The position numbers were made by a program, and so were the translations under genes. Of a stretch of DNA of 64,000 nt, positions 42,460 to 62,363 are shown piece by piece. The notes under the pieces are model-generated. The model saw only the letters and a list, made by a program, of their open reading frames with translations, was not told where the DNA came from and ran no database searches. Each line of letters opens with the position of its first letter. Within the stretch, counting starts at the first letter, position 1. Location of the stretch: positions 124,001-188,000 of the forward strand of contig CAMNST010000002.1 of NCBI GenBank assembly GCA_946555465.1. Reading direction: 5' to 3'. Source of the stretch: an uncultured Clostridia bacterium. Its GTDB lineage: Bacteria; Bacillota; Clostridia; Oscillospirales; Acutalibacteraceae.

Positions 42460-43434
42460 TCATTTATCTGCCGCTTTCTTTATCTTTTTGCAGCAGAAAG
42501 AATTAAATGCGTATATACCCTTCGACAGCATATGAAGAATAAATGCAGCAAGGATTATTCCGCCTGTAAGACACAGCCAGTTCAGCGGAAAAGGCAGTTT
42601 AAACGATTTAATCAAATCAATAAGTGCATACTGAACAACGTAAATTTCCAATGTAATTTCCGAAACAAAAACAATTATCTTCTTTATAAACAAAGGAAGT
42701 TTTTCCAGTTTTATATCAAGCGATGAAAAAGTCAGTACAATAAATACAAGCAGCATAAAAATGATTACCTGATTTACAAACTGCAGATTCAAATAAGAGT
42801 TGTATCTGGTAAAAAACAATTTTGACGCAAAATACAAACCAAACAGAAAAACTGCAAGCACGGGATAAATCATTTTAAATTTATTTCTTAACTTCTCATC
42901 ATTTTTTCTGAAGAGACCGCCAAGCAGCATACTCTCAAAAAAGAGAAATTTCGTCATATGCTCGTGAACATCATCTATATGAAGGTAACTTCTGTCATAC
43001 ACAGTAAAATATATTAAAAGATATACAGCAAATACAGCAATCATTACATACTGCAAATGGTTTTTAAGATAATTATTCTTTACACAAAAATAATAAGGTA
43101 TCAAAAGAATAACCATTGAAGCGATAAAATGATAGTTTGTAGGATAAATCAGCCATTCAAAAATGTTTCTGGTTTCAAAATTATACAGTCCTACCAGAAG
43201 ATAAATGAGCGTTACTGAAATAACCGGAACGTAAATCCTGTAAATTCTTTTTGAATACCATTTAATGAAATTCAAACGTATATTATAAAGACAATATCCC
43301 GAACAAAAGAAAAACAAAATATCTCCGATTAATCCACCGTTAGCAATAATGTCGTTCGGATATACGCCTTCATAATGTGCATTGGTAATAAGGCAAGCGG
43401 CTAACGCTTTTAAAAAATTTATAAAAAATACCAT
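42460..43434 (-). CDS. Acyltransferase family 3 membrane protein
   Basis: Polytopic protein of 324 residues with about ten membrane helices, resembling OafA/WecH-type O-acyltransferases that acetylate surface sugars. The opening INFLKALAACLITNAHYEG contains the candidate catalytic His, and ILFFFCSGYCLY fits the family's second segment (usually FFxxSGF). The ATG at 43434 is preferred to 43461 on family alignment, though its ribosome binding site is weak. It is last in the second polysaccharide unit, so O-acetylation of the repeat unit is likely. Confidence 0.75.
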   Translation of the reverse strand: MVFFINFLKALAACLITNAHYEGVYPNDIIANGGLIGDILFFFCSGYCLYNIRLNFIKWYSKRIYRIYVPVISVTLIYLLVGLYNFETRNIFEWLIYPTNYHFIASMVILLIPYYFCVKNNYLKNHLQYVMIAVFAVYLLIYFTVYDRSYLHIDDVHEHMTKFLFFESMLLGGLFRKNDEKLRNKFKMIYPVLAVFLFGLYFASKLFFTRYNSYLNLQFVNQVIIFMLLVFIVLTFSSLDIKLEKLPLFIKKIIVFVSEITLEIYVVQYALIDLIKSFKLPFPLNWLCLTGGIILAAFILHMLSKGIYAFNSFCCKKIKKAADK

Positions 43435-43527
43435 AGTACTCAACCATATTATATATAACAAAAAGCATAATGTTTTAAATGCAGAAAACGGTTGCTTTCA
43501 TGCTTTGTTTTGAGCAGATTCGGATTT

Positions 43528-44421
43528 TTACCCATTGCTTATACTTTTTATTATCATATCAACAATTTCATTATCCGTATATAAATCAAATTTTCTTGCA
43601 AACATACACGGTGAAGATTTAATCATATCAAAATCTTCTTTTCTGAAAACATAGGGATTTCCCCTTTTCCAGTCAATGAACCTTGCACAGGCATAGTAAT
43701 CATCGTTGCTGACAGGCATAAAAAGATTATTTTTAAACGAACTGTTTTGAACAATCGTCTGAATAAAAATTTCATCACAGCAAAAAGAATACTTAAACAT
43801 TTTTTCATACTCTTTTTGGTTATCAACAATATACTCAGCAAGTTCTCCTGTAATACTGAACCAATTTGAACCCTTATAAACTTTTATATCCGTATTCTTT
43901 AAACGATTAACTCCTAAAAATTTCTCAATTTTCAAAGCAATCCAGGCAAGAATTTTATTAATTGTATTTCGTTTTTTTCTGAAAAAATGATAATATTTAA
44001 CCCTGTCTACTGCAGTTTCAAGTGTTTCAAGCGTAACATAGTGAATAAATTCCTTACCGCTGTTGTGCTCAAAGAAATTATATATTTCATCATTTGTTTT
44101 TATCGGCAGATCAACACCTGAAATAAGATGATAATATGTGTAAGGATTATTTTCATCATTGTGTGAAACAGCAGTTTTTAAAAGAAGCATTTCACTTTTT
44201 ACCACGGAGTAACCGCCCCATGTTACATCTATTCTTTCATCAGTGAAATAAACCTTTGAAAACTTTGTAAGCGATGAAAAATATTCAAAATCAAAATCTT
44301 TTACCTTAGCATCAATATGAATAAAAATATCATTTCTCTTATCATCAAGACAAAGTATCAGTTTTTTAAGAAGTTCAAACTGATTATGAGCAATAATCAT
44401 ATATGCATGCATAAAATTCAC
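43528..44421 (-). CDS. Core-2/I-branching beta-1,6-N-acetylglucosaminyltransferase-like protein (GT14)
   Basis: Glycosyltransferase of 297 residues with the GT14 pattern: AYMIIAHNQFELLKKLI at the start, IFIHIDAK near residue 33, WGGYSVVKSEMLLL near 68, YYHLISGVDLPIK near 96 and GSNWFSIT near 180. Bacterial members usually add GlcNAc or xylose branches to surface glycans. It lies between the aldolase and the acyltransferase genes in the second unit. Confidence 0.87.
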   Translation of the reverse strand: MNFMHAYMIIAHNQFELLKKLILCLDDKRNDIFIHIDAKVKDFDFEYFSSLTKFSKVYFTDERIDVTWGGYSVVKSEMLLLKTAVSHNDENNPYTYYHLISGVDLPIKTNDEIYNFFEHNSGKEFIHYVTLETLETAVDRVKYYHFFRKKRNTINKILAWIALKIEKFLGVNRLKNTDIKVYKGSNWFSITGELAEYIVDNQKEYEKMFKYSFCCDEIFIQTIVQNSSFKNNLFMPVSNDDYYACARFIDWKRGNPYVFRKEDFDMIKSSPCMFARKFDLYTDNEIVDMIIKSISNG

Positions 44422-44430
44422 CCTGTGATG

Positions 44431-45201
44431 TTAAATTTTTTTGCAGTAATCCGTTATGCGCTTGCATGCATCATAAAAAATGCCCACATCAACACTGTAA
44501 CTGAGGTACTGCAGACCTAAATCTTTCCACATTTTTAAATCTTCGGGAGTATCAACAAAACATCCTATTATCTTGCCGGCACTTTTTGCTTTGCTTACAA
44601 TTTTTTTCATAGCGTCAACAACAACCGGATTATTAACCTGACCGGGCAGACCCAGTGACTGCGATAAGTCATACGGACCGATAAACAGGATATCCACACC
44701 TTCAACCTGAAGTATTTCATCAATATTTTTAATTGCATCTATACCCTCAAGTTGAAGAATAATTATGATATCTTTAGAACTTTCAAAATAGTCATACCTG
44801 TTTTGTGCGGAATAATCTGCAGCCCTTACAAAACGGCATACGCCTCTCATACCATAAGGATAGAATTTTGCGTATTTAACAACATCTCTTGCTTCTTCTG
44901 CAGAAGAAATCTGAGGCACCTGAATTCCGTAGGCACCGATATCAAGGGCTCGTCCGATTGTGTTTTCTGCTTTGTCCTTAAGCCTGATAATAGGAACTGT
45001 ATTTCTCGCCTCGGCTGCCCTTACATTGTTCTGCTGGCTTTCAATATCAACAGGACCGTGCTCTGTATCAAGAATAACAAAATCAAATCCGGAAAGGCCT
45101 GCTGCCTCAACAAACATGGGGTCACCCGTTTTCATAAACGGACCGTAAACACATTCACCGTTTTTTAAGGTTTCTTTCATTTTTAGCAAGGAATCTTTCA
45201 T
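44431..45201 (-). CDS. HpcH/HpaI-family aldolase
   Basis: Metal-dependent class II pyruvate aldolase of 256 residues. Family signs are FVILDTEHGPVDIE near residue 42, RLKDK, GAYGIQVPQISSAEEA near 90, a Glu metal ligand in LQLEGIDA and the Asp of FIGPYDLSQSLG near 180. Members cleave or form 4-hydroxy-2-oxo acids such as 2-keto-3-deoxy sugar acids. The ATG at 45201 with GAGGA upstream is chosen over a TTG at 45207. It lies directly downstream of kdsB, which hints that it makes or removes a keto-deoxy acid precursor; that is inference. Confidence 0.9.
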   Translation of the reverse strand: MKDSLLKMKETLKNGECVYGPFMKTGDPMFVEAAGLSGFDFVILDTEHGPVDIESQQNNVRAAEARNTVPIIRLKDKAENTIGRALDIGAYGIQVPQISSAEEARDVVKYAKFYPYGMRGVCRFVRAADYSAQNRYDYFESSKDIIIILQLEGIDAIKNIDEILQVEGVDILFIGPYDLSQSLGLPGQVNNPVVVDAMKKIVSKAKSAGKIIGCFVDTPEDLKMWKDLGLQYLSYSVDVGIFYDACKRITDYCKKI

Positions 45202-45216
45202 AACCAATCCTCAAAA

Positions 45217-45966
45217 TCAAATCGTAATATTATTGTTTTTTACAAATTCATTAACCCTTTTAAGGTCATTCTGCGTATCAACAGCAATCGTCTGGCTGTC
45301 AACTTCAACATATTGAACTCTGTAACCATTCTCAATAAATCTCAAAATCTCAATATCTTCAATAGCCTCAACCCTTGCTTTGCCGTATTTTTCACCGTAT
45401 TCGCAGTAAAAATTCAACGCCTCGGGTGTAAAGCCGTAAACACAGACCTGCTTATAATAACTGTAATCAATCTTACCCTTCGGATAGGGTGCAGTTGCTC
45501 TTGATAAATATACTGCTATATTATCTTTATTAACAATAACCTTAGGAACAGTAAAGTTAACCAAATCAACCGGATCAGTTATTTTGGTCATAAGATTTGA
45601 AATCTGCAAATCTTTGTTTTCATAAAAAGGTTTGATTGCGGCCTTTATTGTTTCAGGCTCAATAAGAGGTTCATCACCCTGAATATTTACATATAAATCA
45701 GCCGGTATTTTTCTTGCAACCTCGCCTATTCTGTCGGTTCCGGTCAGATGCTTGTCGGATGTCATAACAACCTCAACACCTAACTCCTTACAGGTGCTGA
45801 AGATTTTTTCATCATCGGTTGCAACATAAACCGCATCAAAATCTTCAACCTTTTTGCACTGCTGATAAACCCAGTAAATCATTGGTTTGCCTGCAATATC
45901 GGCAAGTGGTTTTCCCGGGAATCTGCTTGATTTGTACCTCGCAGGAATAACGCCTATAATTTTCAT
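45217..45966 (-). CDS. kdsB: CMP-3-deoxy-D-manno-octulosonate-type cytidylyltransferase
   Basis: Activates a 3-deoxy-ulosonic acid with CTP; 249 residues, exactly the KdsB/KpsU size. Motifs are VIPARYKSSRFPGKPLADIA at the N-terminus (nucleotide loop), YVATDDEKI near 55, TGTDRIGEVA near 82, NIQGDEPLI near 98 (catalytic Asp) and DTQNDLKRV near the end. The ATG at 45966 follows AAAGGAG; an upstream in-frame start adds 11 unlikely residues. The window contains no kdsA, kdsC or kdsD. It sits 13 bp behind a sialyltransferase-like gene. Kdo is typical of Gram-negatives, so the true sugar may be another ulosonic acid. Confidence 0.93.
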   Translation of the reverse strand: MKIIGVIPARYKSSRFPGKPLADIAGKPMIYWVYQQCKKVEDFDAVYVATDDEKIFSTCKELGVEVVMTSDKHLTGTDRIGEVARKIPADLYVNIQGDEPLIEPETIKAAIKPFYENKDLQISNLMTKITDPVDLVNFTVPKVIVNKDNIAVYLSRATAPYPKGKIDYSYYKQVCVYGFTPEALNFYCEYGEKYGKARVEAIEDIEILRFIENGYRVQYVEVDSQTIAVDTQNDLKRVNEFVKNNNITI

Positions 45967-45979
45967 AATGATGTCTCCT

Positions 45980-47056
45980 TTATTTTGAAATTTCCTCAAT
46001 ACTGCTGCAAAGAGTAATATTGTTTGGATATGCTTTAAACAGATTGATAACCGTCTGTGAAAGCGGACTGTTTAATAACTGCGGAATTTCGTTTAAGCAG
46101 TTAATAAGTGAATAAGCCCGGGCATCTATGCCAAGAACCTGAATCGGATTGATTATGCTTGTTGAGGCAACAGCAATAATCTTTTTATCCGTTAAATCAA
46201 TGTTCATAGCAATAATTTCCCATGGTATCGCCGTATTAATATTTGTTTTATAACCCATTTTTGCAAAACGGTTTTCAGGGTTTCTTGGATGAATTTTTAT
46301 CAGAAGATTTTCTTTACCGACTATACGGCCGAGTTTTTCTATTAGATGAACATCCTCCATATAACCTGTATCGGCATAAAATGATTCTTCAAAAAATATG
46401 TATTTTTCTTCATACTTATCTTCAAGATTTTCATAATCAAAAATATAATTGATAAATTTCTTGAAGCCGTTATCGTTAATATCTATTTTATCAATTTCAC
46501 AAACTTTGCTCCCCTCAGGATACCATTCCAAAAGTTCAGGGGCAAAAACGCAAAATTCGTTAAAGTTTGAATAAATCGTATATTTCTTAAAAAGATTATT
46601 ATGCGATATATTTTTTAAACCTGACGGCTTTTTGAAAAGTTCATAATACCAACTGAGCCTTTTTGTGTAAGAGGCAGTTCCGTCTTCGTAATAATTTAAA
46701 ATCAGAGATTTATTTTTTCTTTTAAGCAAATCAAACAAAGTTGCAATAAAATAATCCATACTTGCCGTATAAAGAATATCATATTTTTCTTTTTTTGTAT
46801 ATTTTTTTGCAAAAGAATTAAAATTTACGTATTTTAAAACAGAATTGATTTTGCCGTTATTGCTATATTTTATTTTTAAAACCGAAACGTCATTAAAATT
46901 TTCTGTCTTTTTCATTCTTGCGGCAATATCATAAACGCCGTTCATTCGCTCTGACAAAATAATATCGGCACTGTCATTTGCAAAGTTGTGATATTTTATC
47001 CACGATGCAACAAGCACCTGATATACCGAATTGCATACAAAAAGAACCCTTTTCAC
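45980..47056 (-). CDS. Sialyltransferase-like glycosyltransferase (GT52/polysialyltransferase type), copy 2
   Basis: Protein of 358 residues, GTG start at 47056 behind AAGGAAGGTG. It has the three motifs of bacterial sialyltransferase-like enzymes: an acidic-acidic-Gly motif (YYEDGTASY near residue 124), an HP motif (IKIHPRNPENRF near 255) and a Ser/Thr motif (VASTSIINP near 298). The opening FVCNSVYQVLVA fits the GT52 start. Such enzymes use CMP-sugars, matching kdsB 13 bp downstream. It is paralogous to the protein at 47838-48932, with long identical stretches such as KENLLIKIHPRNP. Confidence 0.78.
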   Translation of the reverse strand: MKRVLFVCNSVYQVLVASWIKYHNFANDSADIILSERMNGVYDIAARMKKTENFNDVSVLKIKYSNNGKINSVLKYVNFNSFAKKYTKKEKYDILYTASMDYFIATLFDLLKRKNKSLILNYYEDGTASYTKRLSWYYELFKKPSGLKNISHNNLFKKYTIYSNFNEFCVFAPELLEWYPEGSKVCEIDKIDINDNGFKKFINYIFDYENLEDKYEEKYIFFEESFYADTGYMEDVHLIEKLGRIVGKENLLIKIHPRNPENRFAKMGYKTNINTAIPWEIIAMNIDLTDKKIIAVASTSIINPIQVLGIDARAYSLINCLNEIPQLLNSPLSQTVINLFKAYPNNITLCSSIEEISK

Positions 47057-47076
47057 AAATTCACCTTCCTTATGAA

Positions 47077-47105
47077 TTGACTTAATTATATTATTGTGTT
47101 AAAGT
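47077..47105 (+). promoter_or_regulatory. Possible promoter of the DUF1919 gene
   Basis: TTGACT (47077-47082), 17-bp spacer, TAAAGT (47100-47105), 17 bp before the ATG. The -10 box is poor. Confidence 0.4.
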
Positions 47106-47121
47106 AATTACGGTGATAAAA

Positions 47122-47805
47122 ATGATGAATAAATTAAAAAAAATATTTAAAAACTCTTTTATATTTAAACAGATTGATAAATTTGAAAACAGATATTATC
47201 AGAAAAAACTTACAAATACAGAATTTACCATACTGTGTCCCAACTGCGTGGGCGGTTTAATCTATCACAGACTTGGTGAAAAATTCAATTCTCCTACTAT
47301 TGATTTAACAATAAACAGTGACGATTTCTGCAACTTTCTTGAAAATCTTGAATACTACATTTCAAAAGACGTTGATTATCATTCAACACGTGACGACGGT
47401 GTTCCGGTCGGAATAATACGCGGAGATAATATATATAGTGATATTAAAATATATTTTACTCATTACAAAGATTTTGACAAGGCAAGAGATAAGTGGAATG
47501 AAAGAAAGTTACGAATCAAAAAAGAAAATATATATGCCGTAATGTATGACATCGGCGATTTCAATCAGGAGGATTATGAAAAAGCAGGTTACCTCAGTGA
47601 TGAAAATCTTAAAAAATTTGAAAATTTCAAATGCAACAATAAAGTCCTGCTGACAAGCAATCCAAACCACAAAAGCAAATACGCCTACTATATTAAACCA
47701 AATTATAACGGTCCGTATCCTCTGGTTTATCTTAACCGCGGTATAACGGGATTAATGCAGTATGAAAAAGAATTTGATTTTGTCGGTTTCATAAACAAAA
47801 AATAA
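47122..47805 (+). CDS. DUF1919-family exopolysaccharide-associated protein
   Basis: Protein of 227 residues recognised from the DUF1919 pattern: EFTILCPNCVGGLIYHRLGEKF near the N-terminus, SPTIDLTINSDDFCNFLENLEYY, VGIIRGD and TSNPNHKSKYAYYIK. Family members occur in capsule and exopolysaccharide loci as putative transferases without proven function. It is the only plus-strand gene in the locus. The ATG at 47122 with GGTGAT upstream is preferred to a GTG at 47113. A bidirectional terminator follows. Confidence 0.82.
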   Translation: MMNKLKKIFKNSFIFKQIDKFENRYYQKKLTNTEFTILCPNCVGGLIYHRLGEKFNSPTIDLTINSDDFCNFLENLEYYISKDVDYHSTRDDGVPVGIIRGDNIYSDIKIYFTHYKDFDKARDKWNERKLRIKKENIYAVMYDIGDFNQEDYEKAGYLSDENLKKFENFKCNNKVLLTSNPNHKSKYAYYIKPNYNGPYPLVYLNRGITGLMQYEKEFDFVGFINKK

Positions 47806-47811
47806 AACCAT

Positions 47812-47840
47812 AAAAAGGTAAGCGCTGCTTGCCTTTTTTA
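47812..47840. terminator. Bidirectional terminator separating the two polysaccharide units
   Basis: Twelve-bp stem AAAAAGGTAAGC / GCTTGCCTTTTT (one G-U pair) with a 3-base loop and T-runs on both strands. It overlaps the stop codon of the minus-strand gene at 47838 and ends the DUF1919 gene as well. Confidence 0.8.
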
Positions 47841-48932
47841 TTTTTGCATAATATCTTCAATATCTGTGCAGATTTTGATACTGTCGGGATATGCATGAAA
47901 CATATTAACCACTGTTTTTGATAAAGGTGTGTCAAGAAGTTTCGGAATCTCATTTAAACAGTTGATAAGCGAATATGCTTTTATATCCATACCGAAAATA
48001 TGGATCGGATTTAAAATACTGGTAGAAGCAATGGCAATCAACTTTTTATCGGATAAATCAATATTCATTGCTATAACTTCCCACGGAACATAGGTATTTT
48101 TATTTGTTTTATAACCAAGTTCTTTGAATCTGTTTTTCGGATTGCGCGGATGAATTTTAATTAAAAGATTTTCTTTTCCCACAATTTCTGCAAGTTTATC
48201 AATTAATTCAACATCTTCCATATAGCCGCTGTCTGCGTAAAATGATTCTTCAAAGAATATGTATTTTTCATTGTATTCATCTTCTATATTGTCATATCCG
48301 AACACCTGATTAACAATATTCAAAAATGCTTTATCCTTTGAAACAGGATTAATTTTTTCTACTTTACACTTTGGATCCCATTCCATCAGATCCGGTTCAA
48401 AAACAAGAAATTTATTGATATTGCCATATATATACTTTTTGCCTGAAATGAGTGCAAAAATTTTATATTTTTTTGTTTTTGGAATATCGGTATCATTATA
48501 ATATCCCTCAAACAGTTTGCTTTGTGTTGAAATCCCGTCTGTATAGATATTTACTTTCATTTTATTGTTTCTGCGTTTAAGAACATCATAAATCAGTTCT
48601 GAAAATTCATCAAAATTTGAAAAAAAGAAACAATCATATTTATTTTTAAGTTCAATTAATTTATATAATTCTTTTTTGGGAAATGTTCTGTAGAAAAATT
48701 TTTCCAACTGACCGCTGTAGCCACGGCCCCCGAAAACAAACTGCTTTGATTTGACTGTATATACATTTCTGAATAATTTTGTTTTTTTTATATTGTCTGC
48801 GACTTGCTCATAATGATTCATATGATCGGAAATAAGAATATCCGTATTTTCTTCGGAAAGCATATTATATTTAAGCCAAAGTGCAACAAAAACCTGATAA
48901 ACCGAATTACATAAAATCAAATTATTACTCAT
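47838..48932 (-). CDS. Sialyltransferase-like glycosyltransferase (GT52/polysialyltransferase type), copy 1
   Basis: Protein of 364 residues, paralogue of the one at 45980-47056. It shares LCNSVYQVFVALW, a DG motif (YTDGIST, one acidic residue fewer than the paralogue), YIFFEESFYADSGYMEDVELI, IKIHPRNPKNRF and IASTSILNP. Like its paralogue it should use a nucleotide-activated ulosonic acid. AGAGGG precedes the ATG, one base after the Wzx stop. It is the last gene of the main operon. Confidence 0.78.
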   Translation of the reverse strand: MSNNLILCNSVYQVFVALWLKYNMLSEENTDILISDHMNHYEQVADNIKKTKLFRNVYTVKSKQFVFGGRGYSGQLEKFFYRTFPKKELYKLIELKNKYDCFFFSNFDEFSELIYDVLKRRNNKMKVNIYTDGISTQSKLFEGYYNDTDIPKTKKYKIFALISGKKYIYGNINKFLVFEPDLMEWDPKCKVEKINPVSKDKAFLNIVNQVFGYDNIEDEYNEKYIFFEESFYADSGYMEDVELIDKLAEIVGKENLLIKIHPRNPKNRFKELGYKTNKNTYVPWEVIAMNIDLSDKKLIAIASTSILNPIHIFGMDIKAYSLINCLNEIPKLLDTPLSKTVVNMFHAYPDSIKICTDIEDIMQK

Positions 48933-48933
48933 A

Positions 48934-50481
48934 TTACCCTCTTTTTATTTTTTTTAAAATAATATTGTTAATAATATTGTTAATAATATGTCTCTCTTCT
49001 TTATTAAGAATTACGAAATAACCAATAAGAACCGAAATAACAAGTGTTAAAACGGCAAGAACAAATAATGAAATCCAGCTTTCTGCGCTGATAACTCTTG
49101 ATGGGAAATAAGATACCAAAACAGAAACCGCCACATAAATAACAGGTTTCACTATTTCCGGATAAAATGCATACCACTTCAGTTTCAGACATTTAGCGCC
49201 ATACGGAGCAGTAAACACAAGGTTTCTTATTATACTTACCACAGTACTTACACCGGCAATGGCATATATTCCAAGTTCGGTAGTTTCCAGCAGAACAAAT
49301 ACGATTCCTGTGCTGATTAAGCCCGAAATAATAACAATGATTGCATTGAGTCTTAATTTGTTAACAACGGTAAAAATATTATAAATACAGTTTATACCGC
49401 CGCTTATAATTATACAGGCTATGGCAAGAACAGACAGAATATAAAGTTCATTTGAATCCTGCGTGGGTTGCCACAAACGATAAAACTGTTTTCCGCAAAC
49501 AATCAGGACAATAACAGGCAGATTGGTTAATATGCCCATAATTTTCATCGACTGTTTTACGTTTTTAACAAGTTCATCGTATCTTTCCTGGGCGTACAAA
49601 ATGGTGTAATTCGGCGAAAATACACCGACAATACTTCCCACAACAGAATTAATTGCATTAGGAACTGTTTTTGAAAGCGATAAAACGCCCATTGCAACAG
49701 AATCAATAAAAATATTGCTGATTAGCAAATCAAGATCACTCAAAAGGATTGTGCCCAGTCTGTTTACAGAAGACCATATTCCTCCTGAAATCAGTTCTTT
49801 GACCTTTTCTTTTTCAAAACATTTATAATCAATCTTAATCTGAGGCAATAATTTTTTTGTAAGGAAAAAATTGATAACCACAAGAAGAAAACCCGAGCAG
49901 AATGTTGAAACGCCAACATAATAAAGTTTCGGTTCAAAACATGCAAACAGCACAACAATAACCGCAACTCTGATTAAATTTGTAAAAATACTTGCGATTG
50001 AACCAAGATAAAGTTTATTTGTTGCAAAGGTTGCAACCGAAAAGATTGAACCGATTGTATTTGAAACAGAATTGATAAACAGAACACCAAACAAAAGTCT
50101 TACATCAGGCAGAAGTGCCGGTGAAACATCTATCAGTTTATCCAAGAAAATTATAATCAAAGAATAAACAACAGTCAATCCTATTGATAAAAAGAGATTG
50201 GCATAGAATATGGAAGAAAAATAACGGTTTGCTTTGTCGTTATCCTTCTGATGAATACTTACGGTAACAAATCGGCTTGCCAGCGTATTCAGCGCCAGTG
50301 AAGCCAGCGAAACATAGCCGAGAAAGTTATTGGCAAGCGCAATAAATCCGTTGGCATCTACACCGATATGTTTAACTATGTATGGAGACAAAAAGAAACT
50401 AATCAGCAATGAGATTGCATAAGTTGTCATACTTGCCGCCATATTAATAACCGTTTGCTTACTTTGTGATATGTTTCTCAT
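48934..50481 (-). CDS. Wzx-type polysaccharide flippase (MOP superfamily)
   Basis: Membrane protein of 515 residues with about 14 helices that would flip lipid-linked repeat units across the membrane. Typical features are TVINMAASMTTYAISLLISF, LSPYIVKHIGVDANGFIALAN near residue 30, a central LISGGIWSSVNRLGTILL near 230 and paired helices in the C-terminal half. It is followed one base later by the sialyltransferase-like gene and preceded by GT2 genes, as in other Wzx/Wzy loci. Confidence 0.93.
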   Translation of the reverse strand: MRNISQSKQTVINMAASMTTYAISLLISFFLSPYIVKHIGVDANGFIALANNFLGYVSLASLALNTLASRFVTVSIHQKDNDKANRYFSSIFYANLFLSIGLTVVYSLIIIFLDKLIDVSPALLPDVRLLFGVLFINSVSNTIGSIFSVATFATNKLYLGSIASIFTNLIRVAVIVVLFACFEPKLYYVGVSTFCSGFLLVVINFFLTKKLLPQIKIDYKCFEKEKVKELISGGIWSSVNRLGTILLSDLDLLISNIFIDSVAMGVLSLSKTVPNAINSVVGSIVGVFSPNYTILYAQERYDELVKNVKQSMKIMGILTNLPVIVLIVCGKQFYRLWQPTQDSNELYILSVLAIACIIISGGINCIYNIFTVVNKLRLNAIIVIISGLISTGIVFVLLETTELGIYAIAGVSTVVSIIRNLVFTAPYGAKCLKLKWYAFYPEIVKPVIYVAVSVLVSYFPSRVISAESWISLFVLAVLTLVISVLIGYFVILNKEERHIINNIINNIILKKIKRG

Positions 50482-53477: not shown

Positions 53478-54719
53478 TTACCAATAAAATTCAATACCCT
53501 GGTCAAGCCATTCTTGCTCAAAATGCGCCCATACCAGCGATGAACCATTGCAGTCATACCACAAATGAACAACAATAAAAGCAACAAATGCAAGCATAAC
53601 AAAGGGACGGATATTATATTTTAATCTGACACCTGACGGAGCAGTATAAAGCATATAATTTCTGTCTTCTTTTGTCATTTTTTCTTTCTGCCGCTGCATA
53701 CCAATCATAAACAAAAGAGCGCCCAGCATAGGTATTATCCAGCGTGTAAAGCGATGAAAAACGATGTTCAGGAAATAGGCACCGATTAAAAAGAACATTG
53801 TGTTTGACACATATTTATAAAAACGGTTAAGTTTAACGGGATTCTTTTTATCCAGCAAATATTCGGAAACATAAAGCAGCAGAAGAAAAACAAATACAAA
53901 TGCGGCTATATTTACCATCATCATTGTAGAAGTATCATATGCGCCTTTCTCAGTATAATGTTCTGTTTTTCCTGCCAGCGACTGTACAAGACTGTTATCG
54001 GTTATATCCGCCAAATAACCTATCCCTACCGACGCAACCGCTGTTGAGAACATAAGAATAAAGTTGAAAGTTTTTCCGCTTGTATTTAATGTTACAACAG
54101 TTAAAACAACCAGCATTACCGGGATAATTCCGCTTGAATGCGTAAAAACAGCAAGAATATATCCAATGCAGCAAAGAGCAATATTTTTTCTTTCAACAAG
54201 ATGGTAATAAGCACATACAAATACAACGGCAAACGTTAAACCGTTTCTGATTCCGGATGCGGTGTCATAATACCAGTAAGTTGCAAGAAAGAACATTGTT
54301 CCAAGATATGTGTGCAGTTTGTCAACTTCAAACCGAATTGATGCTTTATAGATTACGAGAAACATCAAAAAATAAACAATAAAGATTGTAACTGCTGTCA
54401 GATAATGGGGATTATCAAAAAAACTGATAAAATAAAAATAGTACGCGGCAACTCTGTATGTATCCCATTCAAACTGACCTGTGCTTATCATTTCATCAAG
54501 GGTTTCCTTGCCGCCTTCTTTCATTCTGTTAAGGAAAAAGAAATAGTTGCTTAAATCGTCAAGTTCATCCGGAACAAGATAATATGCCATATAAGCAAAT
54601 GCAAAGGTGGTTAATAAAAAAACAAATAACTGCCCTTTTTGGGGAATAATCCAATATAAAATCGAAAATAAAAACAGTATTACAAGAAATGTCTGTACTG
54701 CGGTAAGCCCGAAAATCAT
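53478..54719 (-). CDS. EpsG/Wzy-type O-antigen-like polymerase
   Basis: Membrane protein of 413 residues with about eleven helices. The EpsG pattern is seen: PDELDDLSNYFFFLNRM near residue 50, a WYYDTASGIRNGLTFAVVFVCAYY region near 150 and AVFTHSSGIIPVMLVV near 190. It would polymerise flipped repeat units outside the membrane. It is the only polymerase candidate in the locus. Confidence 0.85.
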   Translation of the reverse strand: MIFGLTAVQTFLVILFLFSILYWIIPQKGQLFVFLLTTFAFAYMAYYLVPDELDDLSNYFFFLNRMKEGGKETLDEMISTGQFEWDTYRVAAYYFYFISFFDNPHYLTAVTIFIVYFLMFLVIYKASIRFEVDKLHTYLGTMFFLATYWYYDTASGIRNGLTFAVVFVCAYYHLVERKNIALCCIGYILAVFTHSSGIIPVMLVVLTVVTLNTSGKTFNFILMFSTAVASVGIGYLADITDNSLVQSLAGKTEHYTEKGAYDTSTMMMVNIAAFVFVFLLLLYVSEYLLDKKNPVKLNRFYKYVSNTMFFLIGAYFLNIVFHRFTRWIIPMLGALLFMIGMQRQKEKMTKEDRNYMLYTAPSGVRLKYNIRPFVMLAFVAFIVVHLWYDCNGSSLVWAHFEQEWLDQGIEFYW

Positions 54720-55868: not shown

Positions 55869-56867
55869 TCAACCACGAACTTTATTATATATTTTACACA
55901 TTGTGTAGAGCAAAAAAGCAAGTCTGTATTTTATACAGAATCTGACAAGAAAATGAATAAAATTTTCATAACCGTAATCAGGCTTATATTCTGCATAAAA
56001 CTTTTTGCACATTTTTCTGATTTCGGATAAAACTTTGCCGGCAGACAAATCCTTATCCTTTTGTTCTTCCATAACACAGGTAATAAAACTGTCGGTATGA
56101 AGTTTGTCCACTATGCGAAGCAGTTCATATTTTTCCCTGTCACTGAAAGAAGATTTCTTAACAGAATCGGATGCCGTATCAAAAACATACGGATATATAT
56201 CAATAAGCCCCTTTTTTCTGCTGCGAACTAATGAAGAAGTGTTTGAAATATCATAAAAATATACAGATTCATTTTTTATAGATACTGTTTCGCATAAAAA
56301 CAAATAGGCAAGGCAAAAATTAAAATCCTCTGCAACCGGCATTTTTTCATCAAATCTGAGATTATTTTTTTCAATCAGCAAACGGCTGAACACCTTGGCA
56401 CAGGGGCTGTTAATCAGCCTTGATAAAATCAAGTGCTTTGATGTTGTGAAAAGCGAGTTTGTCTCATTAAGAAGATTGTCAGATATATTACGCTTTCTTA
56501 CTTCGCTGTTATTCAGAAACGAATATGTAAAAACCGAAAGTCCGTCAATAAGGCAATTCTTGCCAACGATTTCAAAATATGACTCACTTACATAATCATC
56601 GCTGTCGACAAAAAGTATATAATCCCCTTCGGCATGGCTGAGACCGCAGTTTCTGGCAGAAGCCGCCCCGCCGTTTGATTTTGAAATAAACTTTATTTTA
56701 TCAAACCTGTCGCAATAGGCTTTGCAGATTTCGGCACTGTTATCAGTTGATCCATCGTCTACCAATATAATTTCATAATCCGAAAATTTCTGATTTAATA
56801 TACTTTCAACACATCGTTCAAGTTTATCTTCGGCATTATATACAGGAATAATTACTGAAAACTTCAT
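55869..56867 (-). CDS. Family 2 glycosyltransferase
   Basis: GT-A enzyme of 332 residues: SVIIPVYNAEDKLERCVES, LVDDGSTDNSAEICK, LFVDSDDYVSE near residue 90 and MPVAEDFNFCLAY near 190. The C-terminal 40 residues are basic and hydrophobic (FCIKYRLAFLLYTMCK), likely membrane-associated. It overlaps the upstream gene by 4 bp (ATGA). Confidence 0.92.
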   Translation of the reverse strand: MKFSVIIPVYNAEDKLERCVESILNQKFSDYEIILVDDGSTDNSAEICKAYCDRFDKIKFISKSNGGAASARNCGLSHAEGDYILFVDSDDYVSESYFEIVGKNCLIDGLSVFTYSFLNNSEVRKRNISDNLLNETNSLFTTSKHLILSRLINSPCAKVFSRLLIEKNNLRFDEKMPVAEDFNFCLAYLFLCETVSIKNESVYFYDISNTSSLVRSRKKGLIDIYPYVFDTASDSVKKSSFSDREKYELLRIVDKLHTDSFITCVMEEQKDKDLSAGKVLSEIRKMCKKFYAEYKPDYGYENFIHFLVRFCIKYRLAFLLYTMCKIYNKVRG

Positions 56868-57790
56868 TTTAATTTTCCTTTCACTTTAGCAAAAAGTTTA
56901 TATACTATGCCGATAAGATTGCAAAAACTGAATTTATTATCGGTTTTTAAATCAACAACTTCAACATGATCAACCTTGTTATATGTATGAATACCTATAT
57001 AACTGCCCTTTTTATCAAGATTTATATCTTTATGAGAAATTGTTGTTATAAGTTCTTCTTCATAATTTTCTTTTGAAATGCTGATTACTTTGTTAAAGTT
57101 AAGTTTTTCACCGTATGAAACGCCGCAATCCTGTGAAGGTCTGATATAATTGCCGTTATATTCAAAAAAATTACCTGCACACCTTGCAGTATTGGCATCA
57201 AGTTTAACCGGATTATTGACACATTCCGTAAAACAGCCGTTTTCTTCATAAAACAAATCGACCCTGTCAAAATTATTAGTTCCGTCAACTCTTTCGGAAA
57301 TGTAATAATTTACACCGTTATAAGAAAACAACGTTGTATCAACAAGATTTTCTTTAGCAATAACTTTTTCTTTAACCCATTTTGATGGAAAATCAGTGCA
57401 TTTCAGCACAAAGAGTTCACCCGATTTATTGGATTCGGGTATCATGTAAAACACACCGTCTTTTTCATAAATAAAAGGATAAGAAAGATGGGTGTCGCTT
57501 TCATATACAACATTCAGACTTCCGATACTTTTCTCGGATAATTCTCTGTATCCCAAAGCACCCTTTCTTTTAAACCTGTCAAACATTTCAAAAAACAGAT
57601 AGTATTTACCGTCTTTTTTGACCAAAAAAGGATCCGCTGTCCAATATCGCTTACTGTCGGGAAGAACAGTAAATTCATCGTCGATATTATTTAAAATACA
57701 GATGTCGCTGCTTTTGTTGAATCTGACTGCACAGCACCAACCGCTTGGAAAAAATATTGATTTAAGTCTATTAATTAACAAGTTTTGCAT
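56864..57790 (-). CDS. Beta-propeller protein related to the N-domain of glucosamine inositolphosphorylceramide transferases
   Basis: Protein of 308 residues whose repeated blades suit a GH43/GIPC-transferase-N-like propeller: RYWTADPFLVKKDGKYYLFFE near residue 70, SYPFIYEKDGVFYMIPES near 130, VDTTLFSYNGVNYYIS near 180 and NYIRPSQDCGVSYGE near 240. In other bacteria this module is attached to a formyltransferase or glycosyltransferase domain; here it stands alone. The ATG at 57790 is preferred because AAAGGA lies before it and upstream codons run into the previous gene's region. It is 7 bp after the GT4 gene, so in the operon. Function unknown. Confidence 0.65.
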   Translation of the reverse strand: MQNLLINRLKSIFFPSGWCCAVRFNKSSDICILNNIDDEFTVLPDSKRYWTADPFLVKKDGKYYLFFEMFDRFKRKGALGYRELSEKSIGSLNVVYESDTHLSYPFIYEKDGVFYMIPESNKSGELFVLKCTDFPSKWVKEKVIAKENLVDTTLFSYNGVNYYISERVDGTNNFDRVDLFYEENGCFTECVNNPVKLDANTARCAGNFFEYNGNYIRPSQDCGVSYGEKLNFNKVISISKENYEEELITTISHKDINLDKKGSYIGIHTYNKVDHVEVVDLKTDNKFSFCNLIGIVYKLFAKVKGKLK

Positions 57791-57797
57791 TAACAAT

Positions 57798-58874
57798 CTA
57801 TCCTTTGTAGAAATTAATAAGAAAATCAAAAGATGTATGTATATCCCATCCTGCGGCACACATCTCCTCAAACATATCTTTTCTTTCTGTTTTTGATAAA
57901 TAAATACACTGCTCAGCCCATTGTGAAGCGGTGTTATCAAGAGACTGTGTTTTAACAAGGTTGGTTACAACAGCCTCTTCCGATACTGAATCAGACATTA
58001 AAACAGGAAGTCCCGATGCCTGAGCCTCTATTACGGAAACGGGCAGACCCTCTTTTGTAGATGGAAACAAAAACAAATCTGCTGCATTAAGCAAATTCTC
58101 AACATCACTTCTCGTACCTAAAAAACAAACCGAATCGGATATTCCGAGTTCACGGCAAAGCGAACTGTATTCTTCTGTTTGCTCTGCACCGATAAGAAGC
58201 AATTTTGAATTTTCTACTGATTTTTTCACTTCTGAAAAAACAGAAAGCAGAAAGGCGTGATTTTTCTGCGGTATGTCTGTTTTGCCGATATGACATATAA
58301 CAAGAGAATTTTCAAGATTTAACTCTTTGCGTTTTTCGACTCTTTCCTTTTCATCAAATCTGAACTTTTCACAGTCAATCGCGTTATTTATTATACTGAA
58401 TTTTTTATTCCCGTACCAAAAATCTCCTGCAAGTTTTGAACAGGCAAGTTTATTCTTTACAAAGTATTTTGAATACAGGCTTAAAATTTTATTTCTTTTT
58501 GCGTTTCCGTTGAGTGAAAACTCGCTTGAATGGCAATGAACAGCAATTTTTTTAATCCCTGCCTTTTTTGCCTGAGGAGCAATAAAAGCGGCAAAATGAG
58601 GAGCATGAATATGAAGCACCTGCCACTCATTTTTATGTTCGCCAAAGAATTTTTTCATTTTATTGCTGACTAATAAATCTTTTGGCGACGGTTTATCAAC
58701 TTTGTAAACATTTCCGCCAAGAGCCTTTATATCTTTTGCTCTGGTCAACTCTGTTTCCTGAAAATAAACAATATCAAATTTTATGTCATCGGGCATTGCT
58801 TTTGCAAAATTAAGAACCGCACTCATAATTCCGTTTGCAACACCTATATCAGGAATCATATGTAAAACTCTCAT
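57798..58874 (-). CDS. Family 4 glycosyltransferase (EpsF-like)
   Basis: GT-B enzyme of 358 residues: MRVLHMIPDIGVANGIMSAV at the start, HIHAPHFAAFIAPQAKKAG near residue 92, VICHIGKTDIPQKNHAFLLS near 205, LLIGAEQTEEY, and LFPSTKEGLPVSVIEAQASG near 275 carrying the E-x7-E donor site. It is similar to 54738-55865 in sequence pattern, so both may form related linkages. Confidence 0.92.
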   Translation of the reverse strand: MRVLHMIPDIGVANGIMSAVLNFAKAMPDDIKFDIVYFQETELTRAKDIKALGGNVYKVDKPSPKDLLVSNKMKKFFGEHKNEWQVLHIHAPHFAAFIAPQAKKAGIKKIAVHCHSSEFSLNGNAKRNKILSLYSKYFVKNKLACSKLAGDFWYGNKKFSIINNAIDCEKFRFDEKERVEKRKELNLENSLVICHIGKTDIPQKNHAFLLSVFSEVKKSVENSKLLLIGAEQTEEYSSLCRELGISDSVCFLGTRSDVENLLNAADLFLFPSTKEGLPVSVIEAQASGLPVLMSDSVSEEAVVTNLVKTQSLDNTASQWAEQCIYLSKTERKDMFEEMCAAGWDIHTSFDFLINFYKG

Positions 58875-58887
58875 ATCCTAACCTGCT

Positions 58888-60012
58888 TTATTCATTCAAT
58901 TTATATAAATCTTTCAATTCACTCAGCACATTTACGTCTTTAAACATTTCAACCTTATCAAGAGAATTCTGAACGTAATAATCACTGTCTCCCAATACTT
59001 TGATAATTTTATCAGCATATTCTTCAGCATTGGTAACAGAAACAAGAAAACCGTTTTTTCCGTTATCAACAAGTTCTCTGTGACCACGGTTATTTGAAGC
59101 AATAATTGGCTTGCCGCACAGCATTGCTTCCATAAGATTAAGCGGCAAACCCTCTCTGAAACTGCAGGCAACAAGCAAATCGCAGATATTCATATATTTG
59201 AATATCTCTGTCGTGTAGCCAAGAAGTTCAACGCTGCCATTTAAATCAAGTTCTTTTATTAAATCTTTATGGCTTTGCAGTTTATCACCGTTTCCTGCAA
59301 TAAGAAGTTTGCTGTCAGGGTATTCTTCCAAAACTTTTTTCATTGCATGTATTGCAGTTGCCTGATTCTTATTGGCGTTCAGTTCACCGACATTGAGAAT
59401 AATTTTTTCATTCTCTTTATAACCAAGTTCAGATTTAAGTGATGCTTTTTCTTCATCGCTTATAACATGAAACTTTGCAGAATTGGCACCGACACCGTGA
59501 ATATGCACAACCTTGCAGTGAAACTTTTTTGATGAAAGATTATAGTCTTCGGTAGTAATGGTAACAAGCGTATCGGTAAATCTTGACATGAACTTTTCTA
59601 TCGGATAATAAATTATCCAGTTTTTCTTCGGTGCACCCTCATAGAAATGAAAACCGTGGGCCGTGTAAAAAACTTTTGTACCATTCTTTTTGCGGTACTT
59701 ATTTGCTGCCAGACGGGTTACCATTCCGCCGACAGGCGTGTTACAGTGGATAAATTCATAATCATTCTCTTTAAGAATTTTTGAAAGTTCCCTGTATGCT
59801 TTTATATTTTTAGAACTAAACGGCGAACGCTCAAAAGGAATATTAAAGAACCTGTCCACATATTCTGCAGCCAGACCGTTTTTTTCTGATAAATTATCTC
59901 TTGCTGCAACATGAACCTCATATCCGTTTTCCTGAAGCATTTTTGCAAGCGGTTTATGAAACTGGCAAATATGACTAAGCACTGTTGCAGTTAATAAAAC
60001 TTTTTTACTCAT
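58888..60012 (-). CDS. Family 4 glycosyltransferase (EpsD-like)
   Basis: GT-B enzyme of 374 residues with the EpsD/CpsF-like opening VLLTATVLSHICQFHKPLAKML, EFIHCNTPVGGMVTRLAA near residue 92, FYTAHGFHFYEGAPKKNW near 120, ILNVGELNANKNQATAIHAM near 210 and ACSFREGLPLNLMEAMLCGKP near 285. EpsD-like enzymes often add the second sugar to the lipid-linked monosaccharide, which fits its place near the start of the operon. It overlaps the dehydrogenase gene by 8 bp. Confidence 0.93.
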   Translation of the reverse strand: MSKKVLLTATVLSHICQFHKPLAKMLQENGYEVHVAARDNLSEKNGLAAEYVDRFFNIPFERSPFSSKNIKAYRELSKILKENDYEFIHCNTPVGGMVTRLAANKYRKKNGTKVFYTAHGFHFYEGAPKKNWIIYYPIEKFMSRFTDTLVTITTEDYNLSSKKFHCKVVHIHGVGANSAKFHVISDEEKASLKSELGYKENEKIILNVGELNANKNQATAIHAMKKVLEEYPDSKLLIAGNGDKLQSHKDLIKELDLNGSVELLGYTTEIFKYMNICDLLVACSFREGLPLNLMEAMLCGKPIIASNNRGHRELVDNGKNGFLVSVTNAEEYADKIIKVLGDSDYYVQNSLDKVEMFKDVNVLSELKDLYKLNE

Positions 60013-60913
60013 TCAAAAAACCTTCCAGATTTTTCTTTATTAAATCAAACATTCTTTTATTATTCAATTCACCCTCAAAACTGTTATGAGGAGTCAGAAT
60101 TACATGATTCATATCCCATAAAGGACTTTTATCATCCAATGGCTCTTTATCAAAAACATCAAGCACAGCACCCGCAATCTGATTGCTGGCGAGAGCATCA
60201 ATCAAATCATTCTGATTAACCAATTTTCCTCTGGCAATATTAACAAAAACTGCCGTTGATTTCATTAAAGCAAATTTTTTGCCGTCAAAAAATCCCTCGT
60301 TATCATCCGTAAGCGGCAATGTCAGAACAACAATGTCCGCAAAAGTCAACTGTTCATCAAGATTTTCAGTTGAATAAATCACATCGAATGCTTCACTGCT
60401 TTTCCGATAAGGATCAATGCCTGCCACACTTGTGTCAAATGCTTTAAATCTTTTGGCAACGGCACCGCCGATATCACCGGCACCGATAATCAGCACGTTT
60501 TTGCCGGATAATTCCTGCAGCCCTCTGCATTTTTCCCACTTATGATTTTTCTGATTTTCATAAAAAATTCTTGATTTTTTATATAAGTCAAGCACACCGC
60601 ACAGTGCAAACTCTGCCATAGGAGCACTGTAAACGCCCCTTGCGTTGCAAAGTTTAATATTATACTGATTAATATAATCAAGCGGAACTCTGTTAAGCCC
60701 TGCCGATGTAAGTTGAACAAATTTTAAATTTTTGAAATTTTCTATTGGTGTATACAAAAATAATCCGTTGCAGATTACCGCATCAATATCACTTACATCA
60801 GAATCAATCGGAATTCTTTCGTCCTGAATAAATGTTATATCAAATCCCATATTTTTCAGATATTCAATTTGACTGCTGCTGTATTTAAATGCACCTGTTA
60901 AAAGAAGTTTCAT
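60005..60913 (-). CDS. D-isomer-specific 2-hydroxyacid dehydrogenase
   Basis: NAD(P)-dependent oxidoreductase of 302 residues. The Rossmann motif is VLIIGAGDIGGAVAKRF near residue 140. The catalytic set is Arg in VNIARGKLVNQ near 230, Glu in FDKEPLDD near 260 and His in ILTPHNSFEG near 280. It would interconvert a 2-keto acid and a D-2-hydroxy acid. Its gene lies inside the polysaccharide operon, overlapping the aldolase gene by 4 bp, so the two probably act in sequence on a keto acid; the substrate is not known. Confidence 0.9.
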   Translation of the reverse strand: MKLLLTGAFKYSSSQIEYLKNMGFDITFIQDERIPIDSDVSDIDAVICNGLFLYTPIENFKNLKFVQLTSAGLNRVPLDYINQYNIKLCNARGVYSAPMAEFALCGVLDLYKKSRIFYENQKNHKWEKCRGLQELSGKNVLIIGAGDIGGAVAKRFKAFDTSVAGIDPYRKSSEAFDVIYSTENLDEQLTFADIVVLTLPLTDDNEGFFDGKKFALMKSTAVFVNIARGKLVNQNDLIDALASNQIAGAVLDVFDKEPLDDKSPLWDMNHVILTPHNSFEGELNNKRMFDLIKKNLEGFLNE

Positions 60914-61728
60914 TTTTCACTCACTATCTGTTTGATTATATCAGTTGTTTGTTTGTGTTTTTCTTCAAAATAACTTTCCGATTGGTTTTCAAGCATTTTT
61001 TCAAATTCTTTATTTTCTTTTACACCTTCAGCAAAAAGGCGCTTTATTTCATTTATATCCGTAGTATTTGACGTATTGCAGAACGAACGCGACAATATAA
61101 CCATAGATGAGTTAAGTCTGTAATGCTCTGCCAGTATATTTTCAGCGGGAAGCAAATCGTCTTTTGAAACTCTTCCCACTCCGCCAAAACCGAACGGAAT
61201 ATTTCTTTTCCTGATTTTATTTGCAATTTCTTCAACGGTTCCGTCTGTTAAAAGTTCAAACAAAAACTTTTTACCCTGATTTAAATGCAAATCATTAAGA
61301 CCTATATGCATTTCGTCAATACCATCAATTTCAAGAACTTCATCAAGACAAAGCCTTGCATCTTCTGTTTCAAGCAAAGGCAGAGTTTTAACTCTCTTAT
61401 CTACAAAACTGATAAACTGTTTAATTTCTTCGGCAGATTTCCACATCGGAAGCATTATCACATCTGCCCCTGCATTTATAACATCATCTATCTCTTTTTT
61501 TGAATCTTTATGAATAGGATTTACACGAACAAGAAGTTCCGATTTATCAAGCACACCGCGAAGTTTGCTTACATCTTCAACAGTATGATGATTTTTCACC
61601 GTATCCATATTGGGCTGACGCTCTTCTTTGCCCATATATTCCATATCAACAAAAATTCTGTCAACACCGGCACTTTGTGCCGCCGCCGCAATATCCGGAT
61701 TATTTGTTATGTAAAAAAGTTTAAGCAT
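60910..61728 (-). CDS. HpcH/HpaI aldolase/citrate lyase-family protein
   Basis: TIM-barrel protein of 272 residues: RIFVDMEYMGKEERQP near residue 24, LLVRVNPIHKDS near 66, NAGADVIMLPMWKSAEEI near 88, the metal-ligand Glu in LLETEDARL near 115 and the Asp in EMHIGLNDLHLNQG near 140. It is only distantly similar to the aldolase at 44431-45201. Second gene of the operon, between the priming transferase (one-base overlap) and the dehydrogenase. It may supply a keto-acid substituent or sugar precursor; this is inference. Confidence 0.85.
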   Translation of the reverse strand: MLKLFYITNNPDIAAAAQSAGVDRIFVDMEYMGKEERQPNMDTVKNHHTVEDVSKLRGVLDKSELLVRVNPIHKDSKKEIDDVINAGADVIMLPMWKSAEEIKQFISFVDKRVKTLPLLETEDARLCLDEVLEIDGIDEMHIGLNDLHLNQGKKFLFELLTDGTVEEIANKIRKRNIPFGFGGVGRVSKDDLLPAENILAEHYRLNSSMVILSRSFCNTSNTTDINEIKRLFAEGVKENKEFEKMLENQSESYFEEKHKQTTDIIKQIVSEK

Positions 61729-62363
61729 TATACTTCTGCATGTTCCTTATCTTCTTTATTTTCTTTAATCAATGTTTCAGTGCTGTTAAGATTGTTTTCG
61801 TTTTTCAGCACTTTAAAAACAGTCATAAATATAATTTTTATATCAAGCCATAATGACACATTGTCAACATACCATACATTTAGCCTTATTCTCTCGTGCC
61901 ACTCAACTTCTTTTCGTCCGTGCGTCTGTGCCCAACCGGTAATACCGGGTCTGACATCAAACATTCTGAACTGTTCTTCAGTATATTCACTGATATCCCA
62001 TGGATGATATGTAAGCGGGGGTCTGGGTCCTACAAAACTCATATCGCCTTTTAAAATATTAACAAGTTGCGGCAATTCATCAATACTTGATGCACGTATA
62101 AACTTGCCGACTCTTGTAACACGCATATCATCAGCACCGCTGTAAACTCCCGATCCGGTAAATTCTGCTCCCTGTGCCATGCTTCTGAATTTATATATTT
62201 TAAAAACTTTGCCGTTTTTTCCGATTCTGTCCTGCTTAAAAATAACAGGTCCTTCTGAATCAAGTTTAATCGCAATAGACGTTATAAGTAATAAAGGGAA
62301 AAAAATAATAAGTAAAAGTATGGACAATACAATTTCACAACAGCGTTTAAAAATCTGGTACAC
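61728..62363 (-). CDS. Priming sugar-phosphate transferase (undecaprenyl-phosphate, PglC/EpsL type)
   Basis: Monotopic phosphoglycosyl transferase of 211 residues that starts repeat-unit assembly by moving a sugar phosphate onto undecaprenyl phosphate. A single hydrophobic hairpin (IVLSILLLIIFFPLLLITSIAI) is followed by LDSEGPVIFKQDRIGKNGK, KFRSM, IRASSIDELPQLVNILKGDM (catalytic region) and SFVGPRPPLTYHP. It has no extra N-terminal helices, so it is the short PglC-like form. The start is GTG at 62363 behind AAAGGGG. First gene of the operon. Confidence 0.95.
   Translation of the reverse strand: MYQIFKRCCEIVLSILLLIIFFPLLLITSIAIKLDSEGPVIFKQDRIGKNGKVFKIYKFRSMAQGAEFTGSGVYSGADDMRVTRVGKFIRASSIDELPQLVNILKGDMSFVGPRPPLTYHPWDISEYTEEQFRMFDVRPGITGWAQTHGRKEVEWHERIRLNVWYVDNVSLWLDIKIIFMTVFKVLKNENNLNSTETLIKENKEDKEHAEV

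Follow-up and report, generated by a model that had tools for sequence, protein, structure and literature searches.

The window analysed here is a 64-kb stretch (64,000 nucleotides) from an uncultured Clostridia bacterium of the family Acutalibacteraceae, hereafter the source genome (GCA_946555465.1; contig CAMNST010000002.1, positions 124,001 to 188,000). Its minus strand carries, in a run from about 62.4 kb down to 42.5 kb, a Wzx/EpsG-type polysaccharide locus with a priming-type sugar transferase, several GT2/GT4-like glycosyltransferases, EpsG, Wzx, two PF07388 proteins (pST1 and pST2), a KdsB-family cytidylyltransferase, an HpcH/HpaI-type aldolase (HpcH1), a Branch protein and an acyltransferase (Table 1). 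This study concerns the adjoining KdsB and HpcH1 genes and the acid that they may provide for the glycan. KdsB lies 13 bp downstream of pST1 and 15 bp upstream of HpcH1, whose ATG is preceded by a GAGGA motif. Both PF07388 paralogues, 49% identical to each other, pass the gathering cut-off of the family; the oppositely oriented DUF1919 gene between them interrupts the run. The same arrangement had been described in an earlier note made from the window alone, together with the lack of kdsA, kdsC and neuB; profile scores and coordinates bear it out, and none of these three genes was recognised in the 64 kb.

The cytidylyltransferase scored 164.6 bits with PF02348 (cut-off 22.6) and exceeded the cut-offs of TIGR00466 kdsB (165.7 vs 155.2), PRK13368 (298.6 vs 255) and PRK05450.1-5 (274.7 vs 193), while it stayed under those of PRK05450.1-3 (220.1 vs 234) and PRK05450.1-1 (177.1 vs 281). 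Its 13 best solved relatives were all CMP-Kdo synthetases (CMP, cytidine monophosphate; Kdo, 3-deoxy-D-manno-oct-2-ulosonic acid). The columns of E. coli KdsB residues K19, D100 and D235 were invariant in a 16-row alignment, and D100 and D235 are, as the alignment suggests, presumably the two functional aspartates of the enzyme. In an excerpt of PMC3149649, two conserved Asp and K19 are given as functional in KdsB, and in another, of PMC12409901, KdsB is presented as the direct activator of Kdo, with no use of the word aldolase in its text. It should be added that the subclade of the window KdsB has Gln in place of the E. coli His in the RHLGIYG stretch, which might mean another substrate; the argument is weak, because the same column reads Phe in kdsA-linked KdsB. 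Together with the phosphonate-pathway nucleotidyltransferases, which according to an excerpt of PMC6697681 make nucleotidyl activation in surface loci more than a matter of sugars, the substitution would suit a KdsB homologue activating a non-ulosonic acid, e.g. a phosphonate or hydroxy acid, made by the aldolase. Such a function appears improbable for a protein that lies over the KdsB equivalog cut-off, clusters with the KdsB of genomes that possess full kdsA/kdsC/kdsD sets and is flanked by polysialyltransferase-like genes; moreover, no phosphoenolpyruvate (PEP) mutase over the Pfam cut-off was found among the 13 window proteins scanned, the rest of the genome not having been searched for it.

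The solved structures nearest to HpcH1 were 2-dehydro-3-deoxy-glucarate and YfaU-type aldolases. Alignment showed H49, R74, D88, E153 and D179 (numbered as in the row used, one higher than counted from the ATG) to be common to HpcH1 and to E. coli GarL and YfaU, with which it shares 32% and 31% identity; we take these residues to be the catalytic and metal-binding positions of HpcH/HpaI aldolases. GarL, YfaU (RhmA) and HpaI handle 2-keto-3-deoxy or related acids. HpcH1 has in common with them the PF03328 fold family and the conserved active-site positions; unlike them, it is encoded in a glycan locus and remains under their equivalog cut-offs (GarL 168.1 vs 406.75; HpaI 165.6 vs 368.8; RhmA 134.2 vs 441). 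As these scores are so far under the cut-offs, the substrate of HpcH1 is not readable from its family.

The draft assembly (2.23 Mb in 25 contigs, 97.19% complete, with the window on contig 2) was searched with profiles, on which the genome-wide statements rest. Neither KdsA (TIGR01362) nor NeuB (PF03102) gave any match at E<=1e-3 in this 97.2% complete draft, and KdsD and KdsC returned only sub-cut-off fragments (29.3 bits, inside a 499-aa open reading frame (ORF), and 29 bits, respectively). The same searches found, over cut-off in 14 control genomes, NeuB in nine, KdsA in four, KdsD in three and KdsC in four. A full kdsA/kdsC/kdsD set elsewhere in the genome, for which the earlier note had proposed to search, was not found in the draft. 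Two congeners, G021 and G149, lacked both KdsB (E<=1e-20) and HpcH1 (E<=1e-40), so the KdsB-HpcH1 module looks accessory in the genus.

In this family, KdsB often occurs without KdsA. Of 200 family genomes, 25 had KdsB (E<=1e-20) and four had KdsA over cut-off; besides the source genome, 20 of the 24 family genomes with KdsB had no KdsA over cut-off. The neighbour counts that follow take stretches round KdsB, some of which end early at contig ends. Among 26 family loci, 16 (from 15 genomes) had, as the gene adjoining KdsB, one for a roughly 530-aa protein matching an HMGL-type aldolase; four had kdsA, four a sialidase-like protein and one (L049) none of these, and the last is the window. PF00682 was confirmed in the four HMGL proteins scanned (L035, L036, L040 and L053), and L045 served as query for most others. 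Where the family has KdsA, kdsA adjoins kdsB, except in G080, in which the two are 1.6 kb apart with one gene between; this genome also holds a second, partial KdsA match (L047, C72 6540-6806, profile positions 8-95), nearer to kdsB than the full one. Furthermore, named genomes scanned with the window KdsB gave 11 loci, with HMGL in eight Clostridia-type/Melainabacteria metagenome-assembled genomes (MAGs; KdsB 42-82% identical) and without it in three Flavobacteriaceae, and in the class sample six of 291 genomes had KdsB: the source genome, three with HMGL, one with kdsA and one with the sialidase-like context.

Altogether, 40 other KdsB genomes were collected, 26 of them with HMGL, five with kdsA, five with the sialidase-like context, one with none and three Flavobacteriaceae. 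The 26 HMGL genomes contain 27 loci, in 26 of which KdsB and HMGL lie within 75 bp or overlap (by 4 bases in 16 of the 27, with longest-start ORFs); in the exception, L063, a gap of 1104 bp holds an epimerase-family gene. Only one of these 26 genomes (G490, a Melainabacteria MAG) had KdsA over cut-off, and KdsD was met in the same one only. KdsC was over cut-off in four (G016, G303, G488 and G490), inside the KdsB-HMGL locus in G016 and G303, and NeuB exceeded 200 bits in five (G002, G028, G036, G487 and G490). In the five genomes with kdsA by kdsB (G024, G080, G105, G107 and G438), KdsC and KdsD were over cut-off as well. For NeuB, the count was restricted to the 13 matches of more than 200 bits, which came from 6 of the 40 genomes; those of about 24-45 bits, often co-located with sub-cut-off KdsA matches, were left out. 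The sub-cut-off KdsA matches (best 137.5 vs 314 bits) were likewise not counted as KdsA; by score and ORF length they are putative DAHP (3-deoxy-D-arabino-heptulosonate 7-phosphate) synthases. In the five genomes with the sialidase-like context (L055-L058 and L085), KdsB adjoins a protein of 403-409 aa, not clearly assignable to a Pfam family, and one that reads as sialidase-like, and their KdsB form one clade (100/97).

From these neighbourhoods, an aldolase beside KdsB, apparently in the place of KdsA, is common among the sampled relatives, with the window as a rare HpcH/HpaI form. The idea that the route is special to this locus gained no support: the commoner version in sampled relatives has the unrelated HMGL/DRE-TIM aldolase. 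The same counts bear on an ordinary Kdo pathway with kdsA, kdsC and kdsD hidden in the 3% that the assembly lacks. The completeness of 97.19% leaves room for it, but in the five sampled non-Melainabacteria KdsB carriers with KdsA, kdsA lies within 1.6 kb of kdsB, a neighbourhood that is assembled here and has no kdsA, and KdsA over cut-off is missing in 25 of the 26 KdsB-HMGL genomes; we therefore regard this explanation as very improbable.

The HMGL/DRE-TIM aldolase of the relatives is fused to a C-terminal domain, for which a fold search indicated a sialyltransferase/MptE fold; comparison of its sequence with solved structures returned no significant match. For the fold search the C-terminal half was modelled by itself, because the matches listed for the full-length model covered its N-terminal half only. 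These proteins are kin of 4-hydroxy-2-oxovalerate aldolase and of the HMGL-fold 'putative aldolase' 3dxi of Bacteroides vulgatus, neither of which is found in the window locus, and differ from them by the added domain. A separate MptE-like protein in L074 was considered as a split form of the fusion and rejected, since an MptE-like ORF, truncated at the contig end, is likewise present in L086, the fusion form of that locus, and other fusion loci have one too. The source genome showed no HMGL fusion beside KdsB, only a single-domain HMGL elsewhere, and in the window no HMGL aldolase matched at E<=1e-8. A HAD protein like that of L044 occurs in 13 of the 27 KdsB-HMGL stretches, and another adjoins the fusion in L086; in L060-L065, which encode the HMGL protein, no HAD was recognised. 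With one query, the window, L074 and L076 yielded no L044-type HAD. The difference suggests that HMGL loci with a HAD protein may use a phosphorylated aldose, and HpcH1 loci a free aldehyde. HMGL fusions for which no cytidylyltransferase was recognised were seen in genus g193 (L093, L090 and L094-L097), where L093 has a thiamine-pyrophosphate enzyme as neighbour and ORFs of 599-606 aa lie near the others.

Phylogeny and synteny relate the alternative forms to one another. In a 43-row tree the window KdsB was nested within HMGL-linked KdsB, with successive fork supports of 97/89, 95/79, 98/90 and 100/100 and with L060 (82% identical) as its nearest relative. The four kdsA-linked KdsB of the family share one clade with the HMGL-linked ones (100/98), and that of G438 stands apart, close to E. 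coli KdsB. All neighbour labels together require seven changes on this tree vs 15.5 in shuffles. Two exchanges of HpcH1 involve cytidylyltransferases other than KdsB. In L074 and L086, which belong to one genus, the flippase is 88% identical, a NeuA-like cytidylyltransferase 91% and a second cytidylyltransferase 58%; the NeuA-like gene is followed by HpcH1 in L074 vs a HAD phosphatase and the HMGL fusion in L086, and then in both by the second cytidylyltransferase. In L076, HpcH1 (81% identical to that of L074) adjoins a cytidylyltransferase 76% identical to the one by KdsB and HMGL in L062. An HMGL-profile match (E<=1e-30) occurs in 38 of 291 genomes; these include the source genome, through its single-domain protein, but neither G391 (the genome of L074) nor G215 (that of L076). 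Judging from gene order and phylogeny, the slot for the enzyme forming the C-C bond appears exchangeable, with KdsA, HMGL aldolase and HpcH1 alternating beside related cytidylyltransferases.

The search for HpcH1 relatives covered 291 genomes of the class, 190 of the family and 398 of the phylum, in partly overlapping draws. Within the family only the source genome holds a close copy, the next protein being 33% identical. We examined 24 loci: the window, L074-L082 (at least about 50% identity; 9 of 59 matching class genomes) and L111-L124 (14 other phylum genomes, E<=1e-70), a group that added no cytidylyltransferase neighbour. HpcH1 adjoins a PF02348 cytidylyltransferase in three loci, namely the window, L074 and L076, and these three HpcH1 form one clade; the exact probability of 3/3 vs 0/21 is 4.9e-4 for a grouping picked after the data were seen. 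Other HpcH1 neighbours, few of them scanned, included an ABC transporter with an aminotransferase, an oxidoreductase and beta-lactamase-fold genes. This distribution fits a single putative event in which glycan loci recruited an aldolase of catabolic type, although the relatives that come next in closeness (L075, L077 and L082) have no such neighbour.

Apart from the Gln substitution in KdsB and the draft state of the assembly, several observations weigh against a role of HpcH1 in feeding KdsB. The HpcH1 clade has moderate support only (86/87), HpcH1 beside KdsB itself was found in the window only, and 21 of the 24 HpcH1 loci are without a cytidylyltransferase in the fetched stretch, among them L075 (66%) and L077 (63%), the closest by identity, and L082. 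Half of the 16 HMGL fusion loci of the class sample (>400 bits) likewise show no cytidylyltransferase in the fetched stretch, six of these eight coming from one genus. The GC content of KdsB (0.37) and HpcH1 (0.40) is higher than that of pST1 (0.31) and Branch (0.29), a contrast that says little, as the window mean itself is 0.37. Finally, the single-domain HMGL aldolase of the source genome (contig C11 57469-58407, 326 aa, 155 bits) could also feed KdsB. It is encoded in a glycan-type locus (L083, C11 50000-66000) beside a GDP-mannose dehydratase-type short-chain dehydrogenase/reductase, a UDP-glucose/GDP-mannose dehydrogenase and GT4-like genes. KdsB might then activate scavenged Kdo or the acid made by this enzyme, with HpcH1 catabolic or unrelated and adjoining by accident, as its many relatives away from cytidylyltransferases would suggest. 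We consider this unlikely, though less so than the other alternatives: the C11 protein has no C-terminal domain and no cytidylyltransferase was recognised in its 16-kb stretch, whereas HpcH1 lies next to KdsB, keeps its active-site positions and belongs to a clade whose three members all adjoin a cytidylyltransferase, one of them in the same-genus swap. Chance adjacency is weakened by the recurring pairing of KdsB with an aldolase, yet KdsB itself was found paired with HpcH1 only once.

On balance, it appears fairly probable that the locus builds a polysaccharide holding a 3-deoxy-2-ulosonic acid made without PEP. HpcH1, as a metal-dependent class II aldolase, would add pyruvate to an aldehyde or short aldose to give a 2-keto-3-deoxy acid, whose cyclic form KdsB would couple, with cytidine triphosphate (CTP), to CMP, yielding the CMP-ulosonate. 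One or both of the PF07388-type transferases would place the residue on the repeat unit, which Wzx would flip and the EpsG protein polymerise. The aldol direction, acceptor aldehyde, product and transferase gene are what we infer from the genes; our guess is a C6-C8 product that carries no phosphate, given that HpcH1 has no recognised phosphatase next to it. The replacement of a PEP-dependent synthase by a pyruvate aldolase, as put forward in the earlier note, gains comparative support from the lack of KdsA, KdsC, KdsD and NeuB over cut-off in the genome, from the alternation of aldolase and KdsA beside the same KdsB clade and from HpcH1 filling the slot of another aldolase in close relatives.

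More tentatively, with the arguments for and against near balance, Clostridia-type bacteria might possess a PEP-independent CMP-ulosonic route in which KdsA, the HMGL-sialyltransferase-fold fusion and the HpcH/HpaI aldolase are exchangeable, each having KdsB as its partner or, in the case of the aldolases, a NeuA-like cytidylyltransferase; the fusion would both make the acid and transfer it after activation, and the window would represent the HpcH/HpaI form. The known routes to Kdo, sialic and related acids in bacterial glycans use synthases that depend on PEP (KdsA, NeuB). With the KdsD-KdsA-KdsC-KdsB pathway of Gram-negative lipopolysaccharide and capsules the locus shares a KdsB over the TIGR00466 cut-off and an adjoining C-C bond-forming enzyme, and two HMGL relatives (G016 and G303) have a KdsC-type phosphatase in their loci; it differs in that the source genome has no KdsA, KdsC or KdsD over cut-off, a pyruvate-type aldolase takes the place of KdsA and the host is apparently of the Clostridia. 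The NeuB-NeuA-polysialyltransferase pathway resembles it in CMP activation beside PF07388-like transferases, but here the genome has no NeuB match and the cytidylyltransferase is KdsB-type. By analogy, KdsB and the polysialyltransferase-like genes would act like the activation and transfer steps of the two pathways; we file the route under neither, since KdsA/KdsC/KdsD and NeuB were tested for and not found. Among the matches listed, open-access titles and abstract beginnings held no description of an aldolase replacing KdsA beside KdsB, which does not imply absence from print.

If true, a pyruvate-aldolase route would explain why most sampled family genomes with KdsB have no KdsA over cut-off, KdsB alone would be a poor marker of Kdo, and such bacteria would bear acidic sugars as yet unidentified. 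The alternation of kdsA and aldolase makes the idea testable with few purified proteins.

The remaining genes of the locus are listed in Table 1. The Pfam scan covered 13 window proteins; the priming transferase, the GT2 proteins and two GT4 proteins were named by reading or mutual similarity.

Table 1. Features of the polysaccharide locus, with positions counted in the window
Feature	Coordinates	Strand	Evidence and remarks
Acyltransferase_3	42460-43461	-	PF01757 68 bits; final gene of the minus-strand run
Branch-type glycosyltransferase	43528-44421	-	PF02485 101 bits; directly after the aldolase gene
HpcH1, HpcH/HpaI-type class II pyruvate aldolase	44431-45201	-	PF03328 113 bits (cut-off 25); ATG start; longer ORF to 45207
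KdsB-family cytidylyltransferase	45217-45966	-	249 aa; ATG at 45966, stop 45217; mechanical ORF reaches 45999
pST1, polysialyltransferase-like glycosyltransferase, candidate ulosonate transferase	45980-47056	-	PF07388 54 bits (cut-off 23.3)
DUF1919 protein	47113-47805	+	PF08942 145 bits; between the two PF07388 paralogues
pST2, polysialyltransferase-like paralogue	47838-48932	-	PF07388 41.6 bits (cut-off 23.3)
Wzx-type flippase	48934-50481	-	PF01943 30 bits (cut-off 28.2)
EpsG family (Wzy-like polymerase)	53478-54719	-	PF14897 62.4 bits
GINT1_N domain protein	56864-57958	-	PF24793 126 bits
D-2-hydroxyacid dehydrogenase	60005-60913	-	overlaps the following gene
Second HpcH/HpaI-like protein	60910-61728	-	PF03328 42.7 bits; divergent
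Priming-type sugar transferase	61728-62363	-	by reading/similarity

A second, divergent HpcH/HpaI-like protein is encoded in the same locus, overlapping a D-2-hydroxyacid dehydrogenase gene; this pair (60005-61728) could conceivably provide an extra aldol-type step or a lactate-like substituent. The polysaccharide locus also encodes a GINT1_N domain protein; the family takes its name from a glycosyltransferase of plant sphingolipids.

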